Source of the DNA: Candidatus Woesebacteria bacterium RIFCSPHIGHO2_01_FULL_39_23
GTDB taxonomy: Bacteria > Patescibacteriota > Microgenomatia > UBA8517
Reading direction: 5' to 3'
NCBI GenBank assembly: GCA_001792305.1
Contig: MGGH01000025.1
Coordinates: 1-37,518 of the forward strand
DNA length: 37,518 bases
Both the position numbers and the translations under genes were made by a program. Below, piece after piece: positions 8,638-18,817 of the stretch. The first letter of the stretch is position 1. Every line of letters starts with the position of its first letter. The notes under the pieces are model-generated. The model saw nothing but the letters and a program-made list of their open reading frames with translations, made no database searches and was not told where the DNA came from.

Positions 8638-9942
8638 TTATTTTAGAAGCCTAATTAACTCGTTCCTGGCGACTTTAGGATCGGCCCTTCCTTTTAATCT
8701 AACCTGCAAGGCTCCTATCAAAAAACCTAAAACTTTGTCGTTACCTTTTTTATAATCGGCAACAGCTTTCTTTTCTTTTTTTATAACTTCTTTTATGGTC
8801 TCCAATAATTCGCTTTGCCCTGAGTATTTTTTAACATTTTTACTCACTAAACTTGATATAAATTTTTCAGGATCACTAAACTTACCATCAATCCCTCTAT
8901 TTAACATTAAATTAGCAATATCCTTAGGGTTAATACTTTGTTTCGCGGCAAAAACACATGCTTTTTCAAAATAATCAGCACGAGACTTATCTTGAACTAA
9001 TATCCCTGCATACTCAGTATTTATACCGTATTTATCGATAAATAAGCGCATTTTATCTTCGGGTAACATCGGTATTTGAGATTTGATTTTCGAAATATAG
9101 GATTTACTAAATATCATAGGAGGAATATCAGGTTCAGGGAAGTATCTGTAGTCATCGGCTGTCTCTTTATATCTTTGTGTAACTGTCTCACTTTTTGCTT
9201 CATTCCATCCCCGTGTTTCCTGTTGGGGAGTCTTGCCCGTTTCCAAAATCTTTTTTTGCCTTTTCAAATCATACTCAATTGCCTTCCCTAAAAATCTAAA
9301 TGAGTTAATATTTTTAATTTCAACTTTATAACCCAAATTAAGCCCCCATGACGTATTAGCTTCCAGTCTCATCGAGCCTTTTTCCATATCGCAATCAGAC
9401 ACGCCAAGGTATCGAATTATCTTTTGTAATTTTTGAGCGAACTCTTTAGCTTCTTGAGCTGAGTGGATATCTGGCTCGGTGACAATTTCGACCAGTGGTA
9501 CACCACTTCTGTTGAAATCTATTAGACTTACTTTTTTACCCCCAATTATTTTGTGCTGCAACTTTCCAGTATCTTCCTCTATATGAACCCTGGTTATTTT
9601 CACCATTCCAGAGGATGTTTGCAAATAGCCACCAAAGCACAAAGGCTCGTCGTATTGGCTAATCTGATACCCCTTAGGTAAATCGGGGTAGAAATAGTGC
9701 TTTCGATCAAACTTTGATTTCTTGTTAATATTTCCCTTTAGTGCAAGCCCTACTAATATTGTCCACTCTATTGCCTTTTTATTCGGTACGGGAAGAGCAC
9801 CTGGCAATCCAAGACAAGTAGGGCACGTCTGAGTATTTGGAGGTTTCCCAAAGTGATCTGCAGGGCAACCGCAAAACATCTTGGATAAAGTCGCTAGTTC
9901 TACATGAATCTCAAGACCAATAATAGGCTTAAAACTTCTCAT
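8638..9942 (-). CDS. gatB: Asp-tRNA(Asn)/Glu-tRNA(Gln) amidotransferase subunit B
   Basis: FKPIIGLEIHVELATLSKMFCGCP..NTQTCPTCLGLPGALPV, C-terminal YqeY-like domain; preferred start ATG 9942 gives a 4-nt ATGA overlap with the upstream gatCA stop (track start is 9966). Confidence 0.95.
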   Translation of the reverse strand: MRSFKPIIGLEIHVELATLSKMFCGCPADHFGKPPNTQTCPTCLGLPGALPVPNKKAIEWTILVGLALKGNINKKSKFDRKHYFYPDLPKGYQISQYDEPLCFGGYLQTSSGMVKITRVHIEEDTGKLQHKIIGGKKVSLIDFNRSGVPLVEIVTEPDIHSAQEAKEFAQKLQKIIRYLGVSDCDMEKGSMRLEANTSWGLNLGYKVEIKNINSFRFLGKAIEYDLKRQKKILETGKTPQQETRGWNEAKSETVTQRYKETADDYRYFPEPDIPPMIFSKSYISKIKSQIPMLPEDKMRLFIDKYGINTEYAGILVQDKSRADYFEKACVFAAKQSINPKDIANLMLNRGIDGKFSDPEKFISSLVSKNVKKYSGQSELLETIKEVIKKEKKAVADYKKGNDKVLGFLIGALQVRLKGRADPKVARNELIRLLK

Positions 9943-11507
9943 GATTGTGGCTCTCTTTTGTGCCAATCGGTAAGCTTTTGATATTGCTCACCAAGATCAA
10001 AAAGAATCTCCTCCGACCATCTTGGACCCATAATTTGCATTCCTACAGGAAGATTAGTCTTAGTAAATCCACAGGGAATGGAAAGAGACGGAGTACCCGA
10101 TAAGCTTGCCGGGGCAGCGTATATATCCATCAAGTAAAGCTCTAGTGGATCACCCGATTTTTCACCAATATCAAAAGGTGGTATTGGTGAAACTGGAGCT
10201 AAAATTGTGTCAACTTTCTTATAAGCTTTTTCAAGGTCTCTAATAAAAAGTGTTCTAACACGAGCAGCTTTCTCATAATATCTGCCAGTATAACCAGCTG
10301 AGGATGCAAATGTCCCAAGCATTATTCTTCTTTTTGCTTCAGGCCCAAAGTAGCCTCTGTCATTTCCATAGCGAACACCATCATACCTTGCCAAGTTACT
10401 AGCTGTTTCGGTCGGAGCAATAATGTAGTAAGCGGCAATTCCATATTTAGTATGGGGAAGTGACACCTTTCTGACTTTAAAATTGGCTTTTCTAAAAGTC
10501 TCCACAGCTTGCATAAATATTTCTTTGATCTCGCTGTCAATTCCCTCGCCTAAAAACTCTATAGGAATCCCAATAATTCCTTTTTGTCTTCCTAAATTTT
10601 GCCCACGGTTTTTACTTTGACTGGTTGCGTCAAATGGATCTTTCTTGTTTATTACTTTAAAATACTTTCTTAAGTTTCGAACGGAGTTGGATAATAACCC
10701 AGGACAGTCTAAACTACTCGCAAAAGCGATAACTCCATACCTACTTACTGCCCCATACGTAGGCTTTATTCCGCACACGTTATTGTAGGAAGAGGGCATG
10801 CGAATCGAGCCGCAGGTATCTGTAGCTGTGGCAACGTCAACTTTTCTGGTTGCGACAACCACCGCGCTCCCACTTGAAGAGCCACCAGCAACTTTATTGC
10901 TATTCCACGGATTTTTCGTCGGGCCAAAGTCGGAATTTTCACCGCTTGCCCCGTGCCCCCAAGCATCTTGATTTAATTTGTATTTCGTAGCATAGCCAGC
11001 CTCTTTAAAGTCATAAACGACGGAAGAATCATACTGCGGTATAAACCCCTCTAAAACTCTCGAACCAGCCGTTGTTTCAATTCCTTTTGTTACGAATAAG
11101 TCTTTATGACCAATATTGCCCTTTGGGTCTGCTACGGATAAAATCGCATTGTATTTATCTATCACCTTTCTTTTTCTGTGATTTAGAGCTTTGACAGAAG
11201 TTTTTCTCTTTTCAAATACATTTTTAGTCAAAAAATAACCTTTATGTGTAACCTTGGATTGTATTAATGCATCTTTTTGAGTGAAGCTATTTTTAATCTT
11301 ATCTTCCCGAAAAACGTTCGTAGTACCGTCTAAAACTTGATAAGTGGGCGGGACATTTTTTGTGTCAACTTCTTGGAGTACTTCCATGTAATTTAATACA
11401 GAAGCTAGTTGTTCTGTGTACACCTGAAGCTCTTTCTCATCTAAAGACAGGTTTGCCAACTTAGCAATATGTTTGATTTGATCTTTTGATAAAATATTTT
11501 TTTTCAT
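9939..11507 (-). CDS. gatCA: GatC-GatA fusion: amidotransferase subunits C and A in one polypeptide
   Basis: N-terminal GatC (LSKDQIKHIAKLANLSLDEKELQVYTEQLASVLNYMEVLQEVDT..) followed in one frame by amidase signature: GHKDLFVTKGIETTAGSRVLEGF, GGSSSGSAVVVA, TDTCGSIRMP. Confidence 0.93.
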   Translation of the reverse strand: MKKNILSKDQIKHIAKLANLSLDEKELQVYTEQLASVLNYMEVLQEVDTKNVPPTYQVLDGTTNVFREDKIKNSFTQKDALIQSKVTHKGYFLTKNVFEKRKTSVKALNHRKRKVIDKYNAILSVADPKGNIGHKDLFVTKGIETTAGSRVLEGFIPQYDSSVVYDFKEAGYATKYKLNQDAWGHGASGENSDFGPTKNPWNSNKVAGGSSSGSAVVVATRKVDVATATDTCGSIRMPSSYNNVCGIKPTYGAVSRYGVIAFASSLDCPGLLSNSVRNLRKYFKVINKKDPFDATSQSKNRGQNLGRQKGIIGIPIEFLGEGIDSEIKEIFMQAVETFRKANFKVRKVSLPHTKYGIAAYYIIAPTETASNLARYDGVRYGNDRGYFGPEAKRRIMLGTFASSAGYTGRYYEKAARVRTLFIRDLEKAYKKVDTILAPVSPIPPFDIGEKSGDPLELYLMDIYAAPASLSGTPSLSIPCGFTKTNLPVGMQIMGPRWSEEILFDLGEQYQKLTDWHKREPQS

Positions 11508-14936: not shown

Positions 14937-14980
14937 TCGCTCATATCTTTGGCTAATTATTTTGATAAAATATATATACC

Positions 14981-15661
14981 ATGGCTTCAGACAATGAAGA
15001 GATCTATCTCGGACAATATGACCTAAACGCTAGACGTGTTATCGAGTCTTTGACTCTACCTAGATACTGGGATTTTGATCAATTTAAAGGTGTACTAGTT
15101 GCACTCGCTAAAGCTGGAAATGGAGCATCTATACCTGCTCCAAATAGACCTGAATCTATTCATGTTCAATCATGGAGACAGCATATCAACAAATTAAAAC
15201 AGTTAACTGGGGAAACCGGTCGCGAACACGCCAGGGCAGTATTTGCAGATACAGAATCCGGTTCTCTGGTATTTGGTAAAACAACCCGGGAGAGAAATGT
15301 ATCAAAGAGTTGTCGGAAGTGTACATGTACATCCTGGACTCGAAACTGCTCACGGGTTAAGTGGGCAAGATTATCGTACTTTTTAAGCGACAAAAGAGAA
15401 CAAGCTATGTTGATGGCTTTTGGAGAAGAATATTTGATGATTGTCTTAAAAACAAGCGCTACCCCAAATAATATTGATAGCAAAAGAGTTGACAAAAGAA
15501 TACAAGACATTGAAAGAGAGTTCTTAAATAGTGGCAAAAATATGGTAACATCTGTTGTAGATATTAACAAAACAGTTTGTACTGAATTTGGATTAGTGAT
15601 GTACCTGGCAGATGATAAAAGCAGAGATTTATTGAATAGAGTAGAAGTAACCTCTATTTAA
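14981..15661 (+). CDS. Probable JAMM/MPN (JAB)-domain protein disrupted by two compensating frameshifts
   Basis: Track ORF is 226 aa, but the middle (RERNVSKSCRKCTCTSWTRNCSRVKWARLSYF) looks out of frame; the +1 frame reads EMYQRVVGSVHVHPGLETAHGLSGQDYRTF, a HxHP..S..D JAMM-like motif, joined to LSDKREQAMLMAFGEEYLMIVLKTS in the original frame. Confidence 0.55.
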   Translation: MASDNEEIYLGQYDLNARRVIESLTLPRYWDFDQFKGVLVALAKAGNGASIPAPNRPESIHVQSWRQHINKLKQLTGETGREHARAVFADTESGSLVFGKTTRERNVSKSCRKCTCTSWTRNCSRVKWARLSYFLSDKREQAMLMAFGEEYLMIVLKTSATPNNIDSKRVDKRIQDIEREFLNSGKNMVTSVVDINKTVCTEFGLVMYLADDKSRDLLNRVEVTSI

Positions 15662-15996
15662 ACTCCGTAAGATTTTAGGTATTCGTCTGAAGACTTACTT
15701 GCCTCAATGTGTGCTTTTTCTAAATCAATATCATAATAATCTGCAATTCTTATAATTGTAAAGAGAAGATCTGCTAATTCATCTGCAATTTTATCTTTCG
15801 TTGCTTCATAATGTTCATCCTGTTTACCCCTATCTTTAGGGTAATAACCCTCGTAGGACATCACGAGTTTGGATAAGTCACCAACTTGTTTTGATAGTTC
15901 TATCATTGAACCTTCAATCTCCCAAGGTTTTCCCTCAATATTTTCGAATCTTTTGATAATACTTTTTGCCAGGTCAATAGCTTCATTAAAAGTCAT
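15658..15996 (-). CDS. MazG-like nucleotide pyrophosphohydrolase
   Basis: GSMIELSKQVGDLSKLVM..KDKIADELADLLFTIIRIADYYDIDLEKA (EExxE/ExxD-like MazG pattern). Confidence 0.75.
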   Translation of the reverse strand: MTFNEAIDLAKSIIKRFENIEGKPWEIEGSMIELSKQVGDLSKLVMSYEGYYPKDRGKQDEHYEATKDKIADELADLLFTIIRIADYYDIDLEKAHIEASKSSDEYLKSYGV

Positions 15997-16083
15997 TAGC
16001 TAAGTATATCAGAAGTTTTTATTTCTGTTTATGGTAAGAGATCTTCTGAAGCTAAAAAGCGTAGCGCGCCCAATGGGACGAAT

Positions 16084-16176
16084 TTAGAACTTTCTGTCTA
16101 AAGTCTTCTTAATCTTCTCTACCTTGTCCATTCTCCCCATTTTAATATACTCTTCATATTCCTTCTTTAAAGGCAT
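16084..16176 (-). CDS. Candidate 30-aa small protein
   Basis: ATG-initiated MPLKKEYEEYIKMGRMDKVEKIKKTLDRKF*; upstream GGAG; absent from the 60-aa-cutoff ORF track. Confidence 0.35.
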   Translation of the reverse strand: MPLKKEYEEYIKMGRMDKVEKIKKTLDRKF

Positions 16177-16220
16177 AATTGGAATAGTAACTCCTTCGTA
16201 AGTAAAATATTTTTTATATT

Positions 16221-16639
16221 TTAGTCAATTAGAGCCTTCTCCTTAAGTCGGGGAATAATTTCTTGTTCAATTATCGAACCCACCTTAAGATTGCCAAGTA
16301 ACTGAGATGTTAGCCAAAGGATTTCTTCTACTTCATTATCTGGTTTTATAGCGCCTTCCCACTTTTTGACTGTAAACACTTCCATACAAACAATCTTTCC
16401 GTTTTGACCGGCGGCAGGATGACAAAAAGTGCCAAATTCCTCTAAATCTGACTCATCAACAGATATTTGAAATTCTTCTCTTAACTCTCTAACCAACGCT
16501 TGCTTTGGTGTTTCATTATTTTCAATTGAACCTCCAGGAGCAATAAAAATCTCTTTATTCTTTGACCTCTCAACTAAAATTTTCTGTCTTTGATTAGTAC
16601 ACCTGCTGCCTTGTGAATGTCATAGCGACTTTTACTCAT
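16221..16639 (-). pseudogene. Nudix hydrolase interrupted by a 1-nt frameshift
   Basis: Frame 1 from ATG 16639: MSKSRYDIHKAAGVLIKDRKF*; shifted frame: LVERSKNKEIFIAPGGSIENNETPKQALVRELREEFQISVDESDLEEFG.. with Nudix box G-x5-E-x7-RELREE; break at AAAATTTT 16576-16583. Confidence 0.75.
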
Positions 16640-16794
16640 TTTCCAGACAACTTCAGTATATCAAAATGAAATGCTTGAGATAAAACTAAGTACGTACTGA
16701 AGATAAAATTTTGCGGGCTCTAGTGAACTATCTCCGGAACTTCTTCAGAAATATCCGTATTTTTTCCTTTCAATTTTTTTGTATAATTTAATCA

Positions 16795-17163
16795 ATGATT
16801 TATTCAGGTGATGCCATAAGAAAGTTAATAAAAGAAGGGAAACTAAATATTAAACCAAGCCCACAGATCAAAGAAGCTTCGATAAAGATACATTTTTCCA
16901 AAAAATTGATAATTAAACCCAAAGAATTTGTATTGGCTAAATCTGAGGAAATTACTCAACTTTCTCAAAATATTGCAGGATTATATGATGGCTACACACA
17001 CCTTGCAAGAAAAGGAATAATTACACATTTAGGAAGTATGTTTGTAGATCCGGGCACAAATGGTCAAATTACATTTGAAATATTTAATGCTTCAGATGTC
17101 GAAGTAACAGTTTTGAATGGTGAAAGAGCTGGCCAACTAATACTATTCCAAGTTATAAAATAG
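16795..17163 (+). CDS. dCTP deaminase/dUTPase-like protein
   Basis: MIYSGDAIRKLIKEGKLNIKPSPQI..LYDGYTHLARKGIITHLGSMFVDPGTNGQITFEIFN resembles Dcd core. Confidence 0.7.
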   Translation: MIYSGDAIRKLIKEGKLNIKPSPQIKEASIKIHFSKKLIIKPKEFVLAKSEEITQLSQNIAGLYDGYTHLARKGIITHLGSMFVDPGTNGQITFEIFNASDVEVTVLNGERAGQLILFQVIK

Positions 17164-17175
17164 AACAAAATTTTG

Positions 17176-17249
17176 CGGGAGCGACGGGACTCGAACCCGC
17201 AGCCTCTTCCGTGACAGGGAAGCGCTCTGGCCAATTGAGCTACGCCCCC
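17176..17249 (-). tRNA. tRNA-Asp (GTC)
   Basis: Cloverleaf by eye: GGGGGCG/CGCTCCC acceptor, CTTCC-CTGTCAC-GGAAG anticodon arm, T-loop TTCGAGT, G73. Confidence 0.9.
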
Positions 17250-17340
17250 AAACAAAAATATTTTACCATCGAAAATCAACAAAGTAAATTCTAAAATCTG
17301 ATTCACATACGTAAACAAAGCTTGAAATAAGACCCTCCTA

Positions 17341-17458
17341 CGGATAAACTCATCTAACTCAGGTTTGCAACCTTCGTTAGAGATCCTGCCTACCGGCAGG
17401 TAAGTTTGATCCCCAAAAATATTATCTTTATATGCAAATTTAGAATTTTTGGTATAAA
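17341..17458 (+). repeat. Copy D of intergenic hairpin/promoter element (with palindrome insertion)
   Basis: ATAAACTCATCTAACTCAGGTTTGCAACCTTCGTTAGAGAT...TTTGATCCCCAAAAATATT...TATGCAAATTTAGAATTTTTGGTATAAAC aligns with copies A and B. Confidence 0.8.
17385..17400. repeat. GC-rich palindromic repeat CCTGCCTACCGGCAGG
   Basis: 6-bp inverted arms CCTGCC/GGCAGG; absent from paralogous elements A and B at the aligned position. Confidence 0.65.
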
Positions 17459-17466
17459 CTTCAGGC

Positions 17467-17985: not shown

Positions 17986-18551
17986 TTATTTTGATCATTT
18001 ACAGGTTAACTAACTGTAACAATATTGTTTGGACCCATAATAATACTGTTTGTTAAACGGGTGGTTTATTCTTATCAGTACCTTTTTCATAGTCAAATTG
18101 ATAACAATTTTTAATCTAATCTATGGGGAAAATATTCCAAATAATAGTAACCTATCACTTTATAAGTGAAAATGTCTCAAATGAAAAAATCCAAGTGACT
18201 TATTGAAAAACTACCGAAAAACAATTTTTGCTTTGTTAGCAATCCTATAACCCGATTGCTATTTTAGCTAGTCCGGTTTTTTTCCCAAAAAATTGTCATA
18301 TTTAATAAATTATAAGAATATGTACTTTTTCTTTAAAAACAAGTACTCTAAGATAATTTATATCCTTATTATCGGAACAATTATTTTGTGTAACTAATTT
18401 TTATTCTATTATTAACAACGTATTATAGGCTTTCTAATAGATATTTATGGAATTTGTTATTTTAACAATTTCACAAACTTTATTTTACTCGATCAATAAA
18501 TTTATTTACCAATATCGTAAAAATAACTTATTACAAAAAAGTTACTTTGTT

Positions 18552-18658
18552 CAAAAACCAAAAGAAAACCTAAAGTCATGCTTGACTTTTACAGGTCGTT
18601 CGATAAAATTGGCCTAAACTGATCTCTGCTCCAAATCAGATAAAAATGTCACGATTTG
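18552..18658 (-). ncRNA. Candidate small RNA downstream of element copy B promoter
   Basis: Minus-strand TTTTTGGTATAAAA at 18664-18676 followed ~70-90 nt later by hairpin AAAGTCA-AGCA-TGACTTT (18572-18589) and T-rich AGGTTTTCTTTTGGTTTTT; no ORF. Confidence 0.3.
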
Positions 18659-18660
18659 AT

Positions 18661-18760
18661 TGCTTTTATACCAAAAATACTTTGATCTGCCTTAGAAATA
18701 GCATTTTGGGGATCATAATCTCTCACGAGAGTGCAAACTCGAGTAAGAGGAGTATATGTG
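18661..18760 (-). repeat. Copy B of intergenic hairpin/promoter element
   Basis: Reverse complement CACATATACTCCTCTTACTCGAGTTTGCACTCTCGTGAGAGATTATGATCCCCAAAATGC...AAAGTATTTTTGGTATAAAA. Confidence 0.8.
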
Positions 18761-18817
18761 TCAAAGGTGACTCCGTTTGATTTGTAAGTACAAAACAAGG
18801 AGGTGAACAATAAACGA

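Follow-up and report, generated by a model that had tools for sequence, protein, structure and literature searches.

A JAMM/MPN-like accessory gene with its active-site block out of frame in a Candidatus Woesebacteria contig, possibly a recently inactivated copy

Does the open reading frame (ORF) at positions 14981-15661 of contig MGGH01000025.1 encode a JAMM-type metalloprotease, and why is its putative active site written in a frame other than the one called? The contig belongs to assembly GCA_001792305.1 of Candidatus Woesebacteria bacterium RIFCSPHIGHO2_01_FULL_39_23 (genome G000; GTDB lineage Bacteria; Patescibacteriota; Microgenomatia; UBA8517), and the window is the whole stretch that was analyzed, positions 1 to 37,518 of the forward strand (37,518 nt). 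The ORF consists of 226 codons in a single open frame (Table 1). An earlier inspection of the letters (the sequence-only reading) had proposed that the called middle is a nonsense-like translation and that the +1 frame there holds a JAMM signature.

Both proposals are borne out. The +1 frame inside the ORF reads EMYQRVVGSVHVHPGLETAHGLSGQDYRTF, which holds HVHP...SGQD, and the +1 frame of 15276-15383 as a whole is VKQPGREMYQRVVGSVHVHPGLETAHGLSGQDYRTF, followed by a stop. The pattern HxHP-x5..14-SxxD has this sole match across the six frames of the whole window, against an average of 0.005 in 200 random Markov-1 windows as long as this one. By codon usage, 15287-15383 scores +0.127 per codon when read in the +1 frame, within the 5-95% range of real genes (-0.01 to 0.43), and -0.414 per codon when read in the called frame, outside that range. 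The JAMM motif is absent from the printed window protein: the Glu codon at 15224 is kept in frame, the codons for both His, the Ser and the Asp are out of frame, and the HxH...S..D block is read as SCRKCTCTSWTRNC.

Table 1. Features of the JAMM-like ORF and of the cassette around it (window coordinates)
Feature	Position	Strand	Description
ORF as called	14981..15661	+	226 aa; JAMM-like N- and C-terminal parts around a middle block in the wrong frame
Segment 1, called frame	14981..15286	+	N-terminal helical region, invariant Glu (codon 15224), strands to 'SLVFGKTT'
Junction 1	15276..15292	+	family-like in both frames, KTTRE (called) and VKQPG (+1); site of the ~44-nt shortfall
Segment 2, +1 frame	15276..15383	+	carries the putative HxH and Asp metal ligands and the JAMM-motif Ser
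Junction 2	15380..15384	+	T5 run, ~1 base short relative to relatives; reading returns to the called frame
Segment 3, called frame	15383..15658	+	C-terminal part with conserved TSxTP and K-x2-C-x3-GL motifs
MazG-like gene	15658..15996	-	one open frame; 4-nt overlap with the ORF end; MazG match below cut-off
Nudix gene	16221..16639	-	frame break after codon 20; ~1 base missing at an A run
Accessory cassette	14937-17466		JAMM-like, MazG-like, Nudix, dCTP-deaminase-like, tRNA-Asp; between PolX and a Trans_reg_C gene

The protein as called has no relative outside its own genome (matches in one of 56 genomes, its own, and in none of 41 contig stretches). A read-through query, built with X at both junctions, gave matches in eight of 95 relatives at E <= 10, its own genome counted, and those in G089, G084 and G090 were strong. 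A profile made from these three members had matches at E <= 0.01 in eight of the 373 class-level genomes, the strong matches besides the own genome being five (G084, G089, G090, G201 and G274). The phylum-level search (379 genomes) returned a strong match in the own genome alone and four weak ones, segment 2 being matched there at E 1.5e-12. A contig scan confirmed six of 34 candidate stretches as family members: two from Amesbacteria and one each from an AMAZON02 patescibacterium and Nomurabacteria, the remaining two carrying the labels Paceibacterota and 'bacterium'. Five of the six are the very copies already found in the genomes above, and the Nomurabacteria copy (L027) is additional; the weak matches in G078, G011, G067, G020, G292, G452, G446, G459 and G700 were left out of the family count. 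The family members found here come from Patescibacteria-type genomes only. Two weak profile matches, L020 (1196-1960, of G292) and L021 (1429-2166, of G011), include an HTHP or HSHP stretch, and these distant proteins perhaps represent further JAMM-like families in such bacteria.

All six relatives encode the protein in a single ORF of 226-245 aa (245 aa if the AMAZON02 copy is read from its ATG), and Glu81, His129, His131, Pro132, Ser143 and Asp146 (L027 numbering) are invariant among them. Against the six-relative profile the read-through scores 250.8 bits, and the printed protein 205.9 bits in two pieces (1-103 and 151-242) that leave out the active-site block. Segment 1 covers profile positions 1-103 with 92 bits, the +1-frame block alone positions 114-151 with 47.9 bits, and segment 3 positions 151-242 with 112 bits. 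The Amesbacteria copy L024 shares 48/98 residues with the N-terminal part, 24/32 with the +1-frame middle and 47/88 with the C-terminal part, so that the middle block in the +1 frame is the best conserved part of the window copy; the called middle gives local alignments to the relatives of 6 to 14 residues at most. The comparison with orthologs proposed in the sequence-only reading therefore favors the hidden frame, by profile and by identity, and it is close to certain on these grounds that the +1 frame is the inherited frame of the middle block.

The same relatives indicate what the window copy lacks. The distance from the Gly of 'LVxG' to the Pro of 'PGRx' is 18 codons (54 nt) in five of the six relatives (the sixth, L029, is without this landmark) and 10 nt in the window, which points to about 44 nt missing at junction 1 (mod 3 = 2). 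The T run at 15380-15384 appears to lack about one base. Two single-base frameshifts had been suggested earlier; the base at the T run agrees with the relatives, whereas the extra base near CCCGGG does not, since ~44 nt are missing there. That the two disturbances compensate each other stands: both shortfalls sum to a multiple of three, and the ORF thus remains open. Positions 15276-15292 are claimed by both frames, as called-frame matches end at 15292 or 15298 and +1 matches begin at 15276, and a deletion between short direct repeats would perhaps fit this dual-frame stretch. Mapped on the L027 model, the lost part corresponds to a loop (residues 103-121) leading from the strand after the Glu to the HxH strand; AfJAMM has a disordered loop (P41-M60) between Glu and HxH (PMC300881).

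Predicted structure supports the assignment of the intact relatives. AlphaFold2 run on L027 with the five other relatives gave a mean pLDDT of 81.0 and a pTM of 0.82. Foldseek with this model found four PDB matches at E <= 0.001, namely human BRISC, BRCC36-KIAA0157, Cap3 (9ild) and the Prp8 Jab1 domain, and its later rows include a few non-MPN proteins such as STIL. VIA-align gave a best Z of 8.3 for an archaeal Rpn11 homologue (3.5 A over 125 residues), and nearly all of the 50 matches listed are, judged by their titles, JAMM/MPN proteins or complexes containing one; DSY2949 is among the matches listed. With low TM-scores and middling Z, fold and motif together give moderate confidence that L027 adopts the predicted MPN fold. 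With the same relatives in its alignment, the printed window protein reached a mean pLDDT of 66.0, its middle lying near 50.

Profile libraries hold little that resembles the family. The read-through protein matched no Pfam family even at E 10, JAB/MPN included, an outcome that the sequence-only reading had regarded as counting against itself and that does so in part. Prok-JAB (PF14464) was found below cut-off in two of the six relatives (15.3 and 12.1 bits, cut-off 25), and DUF4329 (PF14220) below cut-off in L025 (E 0.011; 16.1 bits, cut-off 28.6); the DUF4329 likeness is weak, and the relatives are stand-alone proteins. None of the seven proteins matched NCBIfam or PADLOC, PHROGs gave nothing below E 0.28, and a sequence search of solved structures gave no match. 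Among the matches listed in literature searches on JAMM/JAB, the Candidate Phyla Radiation, DUF4329 and compensatory frameshift, none was by title on this family, and a search on Patescibacteria pseudogenes and frameshift found nothing. Phage, plasmid or viral origin was rejected, as the read-through, a relative and the profile gave no significant match (best plasmid match E 0.7; none of 32 viral contig stretches; no phages). The family appears as small, patchily distributed, uncatalogued and JAMM-like, and is represented in minimal-genome bacteria by six intact copies suited to expression.

Compared with JAMM/MPN+ proteins (Rpn11, Csn5, AMSH, BRCC36 and AfJAMM), the intact relatives share the Glu, HxHP and SxxD elements in the same order, as well as the predicted MPN fold in the case of L027. 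The Glu-to-HxH distance is 48 residues in L027 and 45 in AfJAMM (E22 and H67; PMC300881). The JAMM motif E-xn-H[ST]H-x7-S-x2-D is present in the intact relatives only, and there as a variant: Glu, HxH, Ser and Asp are found in all six, but the middle residue of HxH is T or V, and 9-13 residues, not 7, separate HxH from Ser. The relatives further differ from JAMM/MPN+ proteins by a ~75-residue N-terminal part, by the C-terminal K-x2-C-x3-GL motif and by the lack of a Pfam match above cut-off, and the window copy by having its site out of frame. If the intact relatives work in the JAMM manner, with Glu, His, Asp and Ser in the catalytic roles described for AfJAMM (PMC300881), two His and one Asp would hold a zinc ion, the Glu would serve as acid-base and the Ser would steady the intermediate in peptide or isopeptide hydrolysis. 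By motif and predicted fold they are probably zinc peptidases. The expectation of a repaired JAMM/MPN-type protein in the window copy is upheld by the profile of the relatives and by their predicted fold, although ~15 of the relatives' residues are missing from the repaired version first sketched. In the DNA as given, a usable JAMM peptidase is not supported, because the zinc-ligand block is untranslated in the printed frame; the printed ORF should be unable to yield an active enzyme, and activity would presumably have been lost. Automatic annotation of the ORF would yield an orphan, with ~35 central residues that are not family sequence.

The occurrence of Cap3 among the top Foldseek matches of L027 also suggests a likeness to bacterial JAMM enzymes that remove ubiquitin-like (Ubl) proteins, and JAB enzymes linked to MoaD/ThiS-type ubiquitin-like partners are described in PMC1779556. 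Unlike such systems, the window genome is without a ThiF or ThiS/MoaD match, and no such neighbors were seen by eye at the relatives. ThiF (PF00899) was found in four of eight genomes, not including the window genome, and in two of the five other family-bearing genomes searched (G089 and G274); ThiS (PF02597) was above cut-off in none of the eight, the window genome being 92% complete. E1-like and Ubl genes were not found together in the same genome or operon by these searches, and Ubl deconjugation through a MoaD/ThiS-type partner is thus unsupported as the function. The gene neighbors of the relatives vary, and by eye we take them to include UvrA, UvrB/ComM, SmpB, toxin-antitoxin and transposase genes; with gene names assigned by eye, no conserved genomic partner was found among the six.

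In the window, the JAMM-like gene is part of an accessory cassette that differs from the corresponding interval of a congener (G001). Contig C1 of the congener is collinear with the window, and its PolX (68757) and Trans_reg_C (67359) genes are separated by 1.4 kb compared with 2.5 kb in the window. The congener has no match to the JAMM-like gene, and in the 100 kb of it examined the JAMM-like, MazG-like, Nudix and dCTP-deaminase-like cassette proteins have none; its interval holds other genes, among which, by eye, are presumably MazG-like and Nudix-like ones. Frame breaks affect two of the cassette's four coding genes. The first 20 codons of the Nudix gene are in a different frame from the rest, while its relative in G010 (L046; 138 aa, 68% identical) is a single ORF. 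Altogether, three disturbances lie within ~1.4 kb, two of them amounting to roughly one base in a short A or T run. An open stretch of 46 codons without a good start (16084-16224, minus strand) matched none of 55 relatives except its own genome and is possibly a gene remnant.

Outside the cassette the picture is different. ORFs of the congener gave 44 alignments to the window at >= 40% identity, some of them antisense ORFs and those below 40% left out, with no frame break; together with PolX they add up to 27,641 nt of unbroken collinear coding sequence, and errors at an even rate along the contig are thereby rejected as the cause. The concentration of disturbances in the cassette fits either weak selection on accessory genes or a poor local consensus, and marks the cassette as a variable site where gene decay or consensus error concentrates.

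We favor, with somewhat better than even confidence, the view that the ORF is a recently inactivated copy of a JAMM/MPN-type metalloprotease accessory gene, and we lean modestly towards a lesion carried by the organism over one introduced by assembly. Some 44 nt would have gone from the stretch linking the Glu-bearing strand to the HxH strand, and roughly one base from the T run 100 nt downstream; with the net frame kept, the HxH, Ser and Asp block would be translated as unrelated residues, at the cost of the metal site. That no part is better conserved than the middle block would make the lesion very recent, and the accessory cassette looks weakly selected because the Nudix gene is frame-broken too. 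However, the otherwise pristine state of the middle block and its flanks is equally expected of a false consensus and counts against a real lesion. A serious, if clearly less probable, alternative is that both the JAMM-like and the Nudix gene are intact in the organism and that the consensus or assembly is in error at this locus, as could happen if the cassette occurred in just a fraction of the strains and was thinly covered. The close spacing of the three disturbances, the position of two of them at short A/T runs and the undamaged remainder of the three segments and of the Nudix gene are in line with such an error, but the unbroken collinear coding sequence on the same contig argues that errors are not general, and a 44-nt shortfall is unlike the usual base-calling error.

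The preserved frame raises the question of whether the product itself is kept. Frame restoration could hint at selection for the product, yet by our reasoning it would occur by chance about one time in three, and 32 random codons are stop-free about 15% of the time. We consider it improbable that the indels were retained in a pseudo-protease whose frame-restored protein has a non-catalytic role through its N- and C-terminal parts: all codons are open and family residues are kept in both flanks, but chance explains the open frame well enough, the called middle is without a relative and is predicted with low confidence, and no second genome is known with the same lesion. Slightly more improbable still is that the two indels, the ~44-nt loss and the compensating base, were fixed together and turned a JAMM protease into a frame-swapped non-catalytic product that was kept with a new middle segment. 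Programmed recoding, with a +1 shift near 15276-15290 and a -1 shift at the T run giving an active enzyme minus one loop, seems very unlikely; both frames cover the junctions, and slippage could take place on the T run ahead of the stop, but none of the six relatives needs a shift, two opposite shifts would be required within ~100 nt, and the product would still be ~15 residues short.

Scanning the window and eight further stretches for frame shifts by codon usage was of no discriminating value, as a low penalty marked gene junctions only and higher penalties marked nothing, the known breaks included. Elsewhere in the window, ~0.8 kb between two conserved genes (17986-18802) is without an ORF of 100 codons. 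The single 522-aa ORF at 9939-11507 (minus strand) presumably represents a GatC and GatA fusion, the names being assigned by eye, and the ORF of the congener aligns with it only from its own residue 83.
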